In this document: one piece after another, positions 18,417 to 20,770 of the stretch
Numbering within the stretch: position 1 is the stretch's first letter
How the letters are laid out: each line of letters starts with the position of its first letter
Origin: Limnothrix sp. CACIAM 69d
Lineage (GTDB): Bacteria; Cyanobacteriota; Cyanobacteriia; CACIAM-69d
NCBI GenBank assembly: GCA_001913845.2
Contig: MKGP02000063.1
Coordinates: forward strand, 1-64,000
Length of the DNA: 64,000 nt
Direction: 5' to 3'
Program-made: the position numbers and the translations under genes
The notes under the pieces: model-generated
Told to the model about the DNA's origin: nothing
Database searches by the model: none
What the model saw: only the letters and a program-made list of their open reading frames with translations

Positions 18417-18777
18417 GATCGTTTGCTAGTCTTTCTAATTACCTTGTGTATCGGTTCCAAAGACGATTCATCGCACGTTCTGGTTGCTCATCCGCTTTCA
18501 GAGTTTCTGCTGGAATTTTCCCCATTTGTTTACAATACTGAACGTACTCAGTTGATACTAGCCGTAACCAGTGAGCTAGTAGGTTGGGTTGAGCCTTGCG
18601 AAACCCAACGCGATCACCATCAAGGTTACTGGTGTTGGGTTTCGTGCCTCAACCCAACCTACTTGTACTACTTTTTTACTTTCTCTTCAGTTTCTTTTCA
18701 AGGGAATCTTAAATAAGCACTTATTTTTAAAAATTGAATAAGTGATATGATTCAACCATCTGCCCTCAACGAACCCC
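18417..18777. other. intergenic region holding repeat copy 1
   Basis: AT-rich gap between cobK and the first SH3 protein. It contains the first 95-bp repeat (18573-18667). A short frame across the region (18423-18716) runs through the repeat and is not credible. Confidence 0.6.
18573..18667 (+). repeat. 95-bp direct repeat, copy 1
   Basis: This copy matches the one at 20640-20734 in the same orientation. Its ends are mutual inverted repeats (AGTAGGTTGGGTT and AACCCAACCTACT), and it contains two internal hairpins built from GTTGGGTT and AACCCAAC. In copy 1 the first hairpin (27 bases, 18583-18609) has the loop GAGCCTTGCGA; in copy 2 the same 27 bases are exactly inverted. Otherwise only one base differs (C/T just after the first hairpin). 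Confidence 0.9.
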
Positions 18778-19194
18778 ATGAAGCTTTTCTGGATTTTCGG
18801 TTCATTGCTGCTTCCGTTGGCGCTTGCCCCGATCGCCCAAGCAGAAACACCTCGATCGGATGACATGCAGCTAGCTCTGACTGACCCGCTCCAGAATCTC
18901 TGCATTGTCACTAATATCCAGCAAGGCCAACTGGCTGTCCGCAATAGCCCTGGCGGTCAATCTCGTGCAGGACTAGACAATGATAATTTGGTCGAAGTTT
19001 ATCAACAACAAGGAAATTGGTCTTGTGTGCGAGTTTTGAGCGGCCCCAATCAACGAGTTGTTGGGATTGAAGGCTGGGTGAATAGCAACTATCTCAATTG
19101 CGAAAACATTGGTTGCTATCGTGCTTGTGATCAAGTCATTCAACTGCGAAATCGCGTGAATGCGCGCACTCGCCCTGGGATGTGTAGCCGCTAA
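18778..19194 (+). CDS. secreted SH3-domain-like protein, tandem copy 1
   Basis: 138 residues from ATG. A signal peptide (MKLFWIFGSLLLPLALAPIAQA) is followed by a bacterial SH3-like domain with GQLAVRNSPGGQSRAGLDN, VEVYQQQGNWSCVRV and GIEGWVNSNYLNC. Several cysteines fit an exported, disulfide-bonded protein. The next gene is a clear paralogue of the same length. SH3b domains in exported bacterial proteins often bind cell-wall peptides; the role here is unknown. AT-richer than the core genes around it. Confidence 0.8.
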   Translation: MKLFWIFGSLLLPLALAPIAQAETPRSDDMQLALTDPLQNLCIVTNIQQGQLAVRNSPGGQSRAGLDNDNLVEVYQQQGNWSCVRVLSGPNQRVVGIEGWVNSNYLNCENIGCYRACDQVIQLRNRVNARTRPGMCSR

Positions 19195-19247
19195 TCAATC
19201 TACCTGCACCACCACTAACGCTAGATATCTCCAGAATTGTAAAACTC

Positions 19248-19664
19248 ATGAATTTCAAGCATGTTATTCTCGCAATTCCGATGACGCTTCTTGGCCCGAG
19301 TGCTTTGGCAACAACTAGCCTGAATACTCCCCCACTGTCTCGCCAGACCCTAATTGCACAACTCGAAACTTGTCGTGTTGATCGCCTGCGTAGTGGTCAG
19401 CTAGCTGTGCGTAATAGCCCTGGTGGTCAAGCCAGGGCAGGGTTAGACAATGGAGACATCATTGAAATCTACAAGCAACAAGGCAACTGGGCTTGTGTAC
19501 GTGTCATTCGCCCTGCTGGCGATCGGCTGCGTGGAATTGAGGGCTGGGTTAATAGTAACTATGTTAATTGTGACCAGGGCTTTAACCACGTAATCTGGGA
19601 AATAATTCAATCCGATAGTCAGGACATTGCCCGTCGTGTCCCACGCGGCATTTGTAGTCGTTAA
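19248..19664 (+). CDS. secreted SH3-domain-like protein, tandem copy 2
   Basis: 138 residues from ATG, 53 bases after copy 1. It has a hydrophobic signal peptide (VILAIPMTLLGPSALA). The SH3 core is shared with copy 1 (GQLAVRNSPGGQARAGLDN, YKQQGNWACVRV, GIEGWVNSNYVNC) and the C-terminus ends in the same GMCSR/GICSR form, while the linkers differ. The pair arose by tandem duplication and has diverged outside the core. Function unknown. Confidence 0.8.
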   Translation: MNFKHVILAIPMTLLGPSALATTSLNTPPLSRQTLIAQLETCRVDRLRSGQLAVRNSPGGQARAGLDNGDIIEIYKQQGNWACVRVIRPAGDRLRGIEGWVNSNYVNCDQGFNHVIWEIIQSDSQDIARRVPRGICSR

Positions 19665-19676
19665 ATACTACAAATT

Positions 19677-19713
19677 AAGGGATGATTCCTCATCTATCTA
19701 GGAATCATCCCTT
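19677..19713. terminator. 14-bp hairpin between convergent genes
   Basis: AAGGGATGATTCCT (19677-19690), a nine-base loop, and the exact complement (19700-19713). It lies between the convergent SH3 copy 2 and DUF4230 genes, with A/T bases on both sides of the stem, and could terminate both transcripts. Confidence 0.65.
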
Positions 19714-19761
19714 CAGTAGCAATCAAATTTTTGAATTACTGATTTATGTCAGTAATTTTAG

Positions 19762-20442
19762 TCAACCTGCTTCACTCAAATTGTTAGGCTTGCGGATTGG
19801 ACATGAATCCTCAGTCGGTAGCTGAGCCTTCACGATGATCTCTCTATAACCTCGATCCTTTAAAACTTGACTGAGCAAACGCTCAACAATTTTCTGAACA
19901 CGCTCACCAGCCGTTTTCATCAGCCAATCTCGACAAGCGGCCTCCTCAACTCTCCTGAGCGCTTCACGTTGAGCTTGGGTCTGTAAATTCACAACATCTG
20001 GCCCACTGCCTAGGAAACCTCTACTGTAGGAGTAGACGCTAGAATGCTCTAAATCAAGGTTGCTGCCAAGGATTTTTAGAGGTGGTAAAGTCACTGCAAT
20101 TTGATCACCATTAACCTGGACGTTATTAGCTTGAAATTGACTCAAGTCAATACCTACTCGAACGTTGCCATGGGCAATGTAGAGTAATTTACTCTCAGCA
20201 ATAATGCCTTTGTCACTGACAGGCACTACAGCATCCATCTCAAATATGGCTGTAGTCAACTCGCTGACATCTTTGACTTGGCGAACGATTAGCGAACCAG
20301 GGTCAACTGATGATTTTGAGGCGTTGACATGGCTAAGTTGATAAAAAAGCCATAGTAAAACAATACTCAGAACTAGGGTCACTCCTGCTAATAACTTAGT
20401 AGTCAGACTTGCATCCTTAATAGGATTGCTAATCATTTTCAT
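19762..20442 (-). CDS. DUF4230 protein with one N-terminal membrane helix
   Basis: 226 residues from ATG. A transmembrane helix (about residues 14-36, TKLLAGVTLVLSIVLLWLFY) anchors a soluble domain that begins VRQVKDVSELTTAIFEMDAVV and has LLYIAHGNVRVGIDLSQ, the pattern of DUF4230. The C-terminal helix region (ALRRVEEAACRDWLMKTAGERVQKIVERLL) is long and amphipathic. DUF4230 proteins are membrane-anchored with unknown function. The gene is AT-rich and lies inside the two 95-bp repeats. Confidence 0.8.
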   Translation of the reverse strand: MKMISNPIKDASLTTKLLAGVTLVLSIVLLWLFYQLSHVNASKSSVDPGSLIVRQVKDVSELTTAIFEMDAVVPVSDKGIIAESKLLYIAHGNVRVGIDLSQFQANNVQVNGDQIAVTLPPLKILGSNLDLEHSSVYSYSRGFLGSGPDVVNLQTQAQREALRRVEEAACRDWLMKTAGERVQKIVERLLSQVLKDRGYREIIVKAQLPTEDSCPIRKPNNLSEAG

Positions 20443-20770
20443 CTACTCCAGTGTGACTGTTGGTGGTGGTTGCGGCTAAGGCTTCTGACAAATTGAGGTA
20501 CTCGACTTTTCATCAACTACCCCCTCTTGCGAGATCATAAACCAGACGTTGCATAGCTGCAACTTTAATTCTCTGATTTAGCTGTGTCATTTACATAGGC
20601 ATAAACCTTACACTTTGATCATCCCCTGAGTATCCCGTAGAGCTAGTAGGTTGGGTTTCGCAAGGCTCAACCCAACGTGATCACCATCAAGGTTACTGGT
20701 GTTGGGTTTCGTGCCTCAACCCAACCTACTTGTATAAACATCTACAACGAAAATAATAGGTCTACTTCAC
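20443..20770. other. intergenic region holding repeat copy 2
   Basis: The AT-rich gap between the divergent DUF4230 gene and the small split gene. It holds the second 95-bp repeat (20640-20734), which ends 36 bases before the small gene. Confidence 0.6.
20640..20734 (+). repeat. 95-bp direct repeat, copy 2
   Basis: Same orientation and near-identical to 18573-18667, but the 27-base hairpin at 20650-20676 (loop TCGCAAGGCTC) is the exact reverse complement of its counterpart. The rest differs by one base. Confidence 0.9.

Follow-up and report, generated by a model that had tools for sequence, protein, structure and literature searches.

GTAG-tagged REPs have already been described in cyanobacteria, including a group, GTAG-15, with large loops of 9–15 (PMC3733652), and a long hairpin has been proposed as the mobile form of REPINs (PMC3116915). 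Small inversions associated with inverted repeats have been recorded elsewhere: in yeast, the inversion of inverted-repeat spacers by template switching was shown phylogenetically and is both reversible and recurrent (Abraham & Hazkani-Covo 2021, PMC8604942), and in chloroplast DNA small hairpin-associated inversions of 4–50 bp are described as common (Kelchner & Wendel 1996, cited in PMC12371153). Hairpin loop inversion is a known kind of mutation. Literature searches returned no earlier report of REP loop flips, nor of the present sequence motif, an absence that is not proven by these searches. Here we describe a cyanobacterial REPIN whose hairpin loop is occasionally inverted in place, most likely by replication template switching between its 8-bp arms, with the second copy in the window as the flipped descendant of a copy resembling the first; we give this reading a probability of about 0.72.

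A REPIN pair with one inverted hairpin

The window, the whole 64,000-nucleotide stretch of DNA that was analysed, contains two 95-bp direct copies (18573–18667 and 20640–20734) that mismatch at eight positions as they stand and, after reverse-complementing 20650–20676, at only one (18611 C versus 20678 T). The first-pass annotation had described two 95-bp copies that differ by one base apart from an exactly inverted 27-base segment, and the sequence bears this out in both position and extent. The arms of the inverted hairpin are perfect over 8 bp (GTTGGGTT/AACCCAAC) and the visible change is the 11-nt loop, at 18591–18601 in copy 1; within the arms, the position of the inversion breakpoints is ambiguous. 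The pattern GTTGGGTTN{5,15}AACCCAAC has four matches in the window compared to 0 expected (100 shuffles). The unit is also, as had been noted, bounded by inverted repeats, with an outer match that is perfect over 16 bp in copy 1 (18578–18593/18648–18663) and is cut by the flip to about 13 bp in copy 2 (AGTAGGTTGGGTT/AACCCAACCTACT). The real repeat unit is 84 bp, running from GTAG to CTAC (Table 1), rather than 95 bp, and the 11 additional bases (GAGCTA, TTGTA) common to both window copies are, as a whole, absent from the other copies inspected. A search of the window region against Rfam gave nothing notable, with a sub-threshold MIR474 match. The DNA between the two copies encodes, in tandem, two small proteins that are paralogues of one another and have an SH3_3-like domain (18778–19194 and 19248–19664), adjoined by a DUF4230 gene on the minus strand (19762–20442).

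Table 1. Coordinates (window positions) of the parts of the two REPIN copies.
Feature	Position	Strand	Remarks
REPIN copy 1	18579..18662	+	84 bp, both hairpins in usual orientation
GTAG tag, left REP, copy 1	18579..18582	+	same tag elsewhere in family
A hairpin, copy 1, usual orientation	18583..18609	+	arms 18583-18590/18602-18609, loop GAGCCTTGCGA 18591-18601
Spacer between hairpins, copy 1	18610..18633	+	24 nt
B hairpin, copy 1	18634..18658	-	9-nt loop; followed by CTAC tag 18659-18662
REPIN copy 2	20646..20729	+	84 bp, A hairpin flipped
GTAG tag, left REP, copy 2	20646..20649	+	did not flip along with hairpin
A hairpin, copy 2, flipped	20650..20676	-	arms 20650-20657/20669-20676, loop TCGCAAGGCTC 20658-20668; 27/27 reverse complement of 18583-18609
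Spacer, copy 2	20677..20700	+	24 nt; single mismatch with copy 1 (20678)
B hairpin, copy 2, usual orientation	20701..20725	-	followed by CTAC 20726-20729

The 84-bp core opens with GTAG and hairpin A (27 nt), continues through a 24-nt spacer into hairpin B (25 nt), which points the opposite way, and closes with CTAC. About 40 copies, whole or partial, are dispersed at unrelated sites in the genome of the window (G000), the GTAG tag is present on nearly all hairpins scored, and a clear B partner was found for 64 of the 86 A hairpins in three genomes of the genus. Across the phylum, the unflipped tagged hairpin is present in 63 of the 386 genomes sampled. The repeat is a cyanobacterial REPIN, an inverted pair of GTAG-tagged REPs, and a non-autonomous element whose mobilisation is most likely due to a RAYT (TnpA_REP) transposase. 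A RAYT gene of 180 codons is located on contig C89 (L055, 1121–1663), scoring 204 bits against the NCBIfam model REP_Tyr_transpos (NF047646; cut-off 80) and matching the solved structure of the E. coli TnpA_REP (PDB 4er8) with E=2.5e-35. REPs of the same family stand on both sides of this gene (at 1077 and about 1745 of L055) and the right-hand REP is itself flipped. The first-pass annotation had missed both the REPIN nature of the unit and the RAYT in the genome, while its reading of an inversion in place stands.

Several other arrangements of the same elements were observed. In G000:C89 (L055 1069–2680), the RAYT gene, the REPs, and an unknown 262-aa ORF make up a stretch of about 1.6 kb, where the congener G033 has a single REP (L169, G033:C6). 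The same REP hairpin forms a tandem array of at least 11 copies with a regular 104-bp spacing at G008:C22:76497-77565, and short direct arrays in which the REP hairpins all point one way, in contrast to the inverted pairing in the window, are present at G101:C1:2275287-2275572 and G227:C16:12875-13006. At G000:C31:330-425 (L045), about 20 foreign bases (ACCCTTCGGGAAGCAAGCTACG) split the B hairpin of a REPIN and may represent a further small repeat lying within the loop.

Distribution and descent of flipped hairpins

Orientation was scored for every tagged hairpin in the fetched loci of three genomes of the genus (G000, G033, and G386), leaving out one spurious A-type match in L066 of the genome of the window and one G386 match with an ill-defined 16-nt loop. 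The A hairpin was flipped in 5 of 36, 0 of 11, and 5 of 39 instances in G000, G033, and G386, respectively, and the B hairpin in 0 of 38, 1 of 17, and 0 of 39, such that the pooled genus has 10/86 flipped A hairpins versus 1/94 flipped B hairpins (Fisher p = 0.004, an optimistic value as the copies are partly related). Exact-match hairpins in 65 genomes, from a sample with one genome per species, amounted to 23 flipped and 854 unflipped, divided into 9 versus 106 within the genus and 14 versus 748 outside (p = 0.001). Double-tagged hairpins (GTAG...CTAC), which imitate flips in pattern searches, were excluded by demanding no C after the hairpin; a flipped match in G227, one of the 14 outside the genus, is followed by TTAC and may be a decayed double tag.

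Flips also occur in approximately 10 other genera, several within single contigs of 3.8 to 8.6 Mb. An assembly artefact of short-read genomes is hardly credible as their source: the genome of the window is in 100 contigs, several of which end at these repeats, and G386 is apparently a metagenome-assembled genome, but reads longer than about 40 bp fix the tag and loop together and the same flips are found in genomes represented by a single long contig (G066, G231, and G336). Flipped REP hairpins of the cyanobacterial type were also seen on contigs labelled Desulfobulbaceae and Gracilibacteria (L270, L271), perhaps reflecting binning contamination in metagenome assemblies.

Seven flipped REPINs had a partner hairpin that could be clearly assigned, and these were compared with their nearest relatives over all of the element but the loop. 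Three flipped copies in the genome of the window have an unflipped relative in the same genome that is one base away outside the loop (copy 2 and copy 1 of the window; C63:106736 and copies on C14, C24, C34, and C50; C78:5431 and C78:5294), and in the last of these pairs the loops too differ by one base, making it an imperfectly clean flip. For a fourth flipped copy, in G386, the unflipped relative one base away is in the sister genome G000. The flipped copies do not cluster (nearest-neighbour credit 1.0 versus 0.68 expected, p = 0.3) and agree with their unflipped sisters in the spacer. A division into two fixed subfamilies by descent, the account that the first-pass annotation had set against its own reading of an inversion, is ruled out, as the flipped copies are scattered and their nearest relatives are mostly unflipped; with genome copies collected and their orientation scored, the inversion reading survives. 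The hairpin loop has flipped repeatedly and independently. At the locus C78/C102, the flipped A hairpin is common to G000 and G386, indicating that a flip may also be inherited; the genome of the window has a tandem pair there, one flipped and one not (G000:C78:5215-5439), and the congener has one REPIN (G386:C102:69413-69497).

Inversion at orthologous sites

The decisive case of inversion in place is a REPIN that two sister species carry at an orthologous position (G000:C21:13445 and G386:C66:37385), in which the hairpin is inverted over 27/27 positions, one other base of the element differs, and the adjoining segments, on both sides of the element, are 89.7%, 91.5%, and 89.7% identical. In a second case, a B hairpin bordering the RAYT locus is inverted between G000:C89:18553 and G033:C6:105582; this evidence is weaker, as the left neighbour is rearranged and the transposase segment is absent from G033. 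At the matching positions, G033 and G386 showed neither of the window REPINs, and around copy 1 the G033 sequence is not alignable and lacks the REPIN, so that the insertion ends are unreadable there.

The C21/C66 site also bears on ectopic gene conversion, or the arrival of REPs from a distinct subfamily that had flipped beforehand, either of which we consider improbable. Flipped loops of several sequences exist and could in principle have served as donors, but flipped copies share their spacer with unflipped sisters and form no subfamily, and a site changed in the loop and one other base would call for conversion over a tract of about 11 nt. Gene conversion from a flipped template, as offered by the first-pass annotation, retains a small chance, provided that so short a tract is allowed.

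By hand count, 2 of 19 REP hairpins in orthologous DNA are flipped; alignments that were ambiguous are excluded from this count, as is the second, duplicate half of the C78 tandem. The two genomes of a pair diverge by roughly 8% (6–10%, a rough value from the identities), which puts the rate at about 1.3 (1–1.8) flips per hairpin per substitution per site; its approximate 95% range is 0.2 to 4.8. The flip rate is therefore estimated, within a wide interval, to be near one point mutation per site and far below a phase-variation switch, and flipping looks like a slow recurrent mutational process with no sign of a dedicated switch; at such a rate, flipping at the level of a culture is unexpected. 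A regulated switch, in which toggling of the hairpin would govern adjacent genes or the mobility of the element, would accommodate the differing orientation at orthologous sites and the altered predicted fold of the full-length element (see below). Phase-variable inversions, in contrast, have rates orders of magnitude above point mutation, and with the near-point-mutation rate estimated from these 19 hairpins and flips scattered over unrelated sites, such a switch is very improbable.

Among approximately 36 other inverted repeats with arms ≥7 bp in the same orthologous DNA, there were 0 clear flips, and one non-REP case with a 3-nt loop is explained equally well by a single substitution. The difference in flips between REP and non-REP inverted repeats is not significant (p = 0.12), a value that leaves room for a possible REP-specific flipping process.

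Candidate mechanisms

Template switching is proposed as the molecular step because the product matches what switching between inverted-repeat arms gives, as in yeast. The replicating strand would copy one 8-bp arm and the nascent strand would then anneal to the complementary arm, either of the opposite strand or of the sister, such that the loop would be copied backwards before the strand returned to the original template; the tags, arms, and spacer would stay as before and the loop alone would be reversed. Counting against this step for arms of 8 bp, the yeast spacer inversions were seen solely with arms >9 bp (PMC8604942). The A loop can form two further inner G-C pairs, extending the arms to 10 bp, and these may stabilise an extruded hairpin, a suggestion that bears on the excess of flips in A over B (10/86 versus 1/94), which template switching alone does not account for.

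Two other processes acting on the hairpin are unlikely, to a similar degree. Strand exchange or cruciform processing (reciprocal recombination) between the 8-bp arms would invert the loop with an identical product, and folding predictions for the single strands give the hairpins at -6.7 to -7.9 kcal/mol, but the anatomy has no pointer to a site-specific recombinase, and 8-bp arms 9–11 nt apart are far too short for RecA-type homologous exchange. Of the mechanism in the first-pass annotation, the inversion in place is upheld, and strict recombination between the 8-bp arms is less likely than template switching. Alternatively, the RAYT may make the flips, with REP single strands cut and rejoined at the hairpin and occasionally resealed in the opposite sense. 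The RAYT gene lies between REPs of the same family, its own right-hand REP being flipped, flips per exact-match hairpin are commoner within the genus than elsewhere (p = 0.001, above), and in vitro the E. coli TnpA_REP both cleaves REP strands and joins them again (PMC8266576). Cleavage by TnpA_REP, though, falls beyond the hairpin, at CT dinucleotides on the 5′ or 3′ side of the REP (PMC8266576), and an inversion that leaves GTAG in place is thus not an expected product. Further, G386 has five flipped A hairpins, yet its two detected RAYT relatives (46–50% identical, one with a stop codon) were not found flanked by hairpins of the family.

Consequences and relation to known systems

As single-stranded DNA, the unflipped copy 1 is predicted to fold into one long hairpin (-29.2 kcal/mol, z -7.9), compared to -20.5 kcal/mol for the flipped copy 2, and the flip weakens this predicted full-length hairpin. 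If the long hairpin is the mobile form, then a flip should hamper REPIN movement. Speaking against a strong effect, E. coli TnpA_REP still bound and cut REPs in which the loop or upper stem had been replaced by its complement (PMC8266576). For the element, the flip is probably either nearly neutral or slightly disabling. It is quite unlikely that hairpin orientation constitutes a state of the element, in which the RAYT or a host factor flips loops and flipped REPINs, their long hairpin weakened, are off for mobilisation, limiting REPIN spread.

With dozens of near-identical hairpins per genome, REPINs make loop inversion countable and its rate measurable in bacteria. Orientation within REPs is an unreliable marker of descent, and flipped and unflipped REPs are natural substrates for testing which hairpin features a RAYT needs.

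The family shares with the GTAG REP dimers and REPINs described with their RAYTs (Di Nocera 2013, PMC3733652; Bertels & Rainey 2011, PMC3116915) the GTAG tag, an 8-bp stem, the head-to-head hairpin pair, dozens of copies, and a RAYT between the same REPs. The loops of 9 and 11 nt are within the 9–15 range given for GTAG-15 (PMC3733652), a comparison by loop length and not by consensus. Unlike the present family, the passages searched in those accounts make no mention of a flipped hairpin behind an intact GTAG. Phase-variable invertible promoters likewise have a DNA segment between inverted repeats that switches orientation, but here no recombinase is known to be involved, the estimated rate is far lower, and no promoter has been shown. 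The yeast spacer inversions (PMC8604942) are alike in the retention of perfect arms, the exact inversion of the spacer, and recurrence, and differ in their arms of >9 bp and their location in coding DNA, as opposed to 8-bp arms and a 9–11 nt loop in a bacterial mobile repeat. The small chloroplast inversions (Kelchner & Wendel 1996, cited in PMC12371153) are, as cited there, similarly short and ascribed to hairpin structure; whereas those occur at unique sites of the plastid, the REPINs offer many copies of one element in which independent events can be counted.
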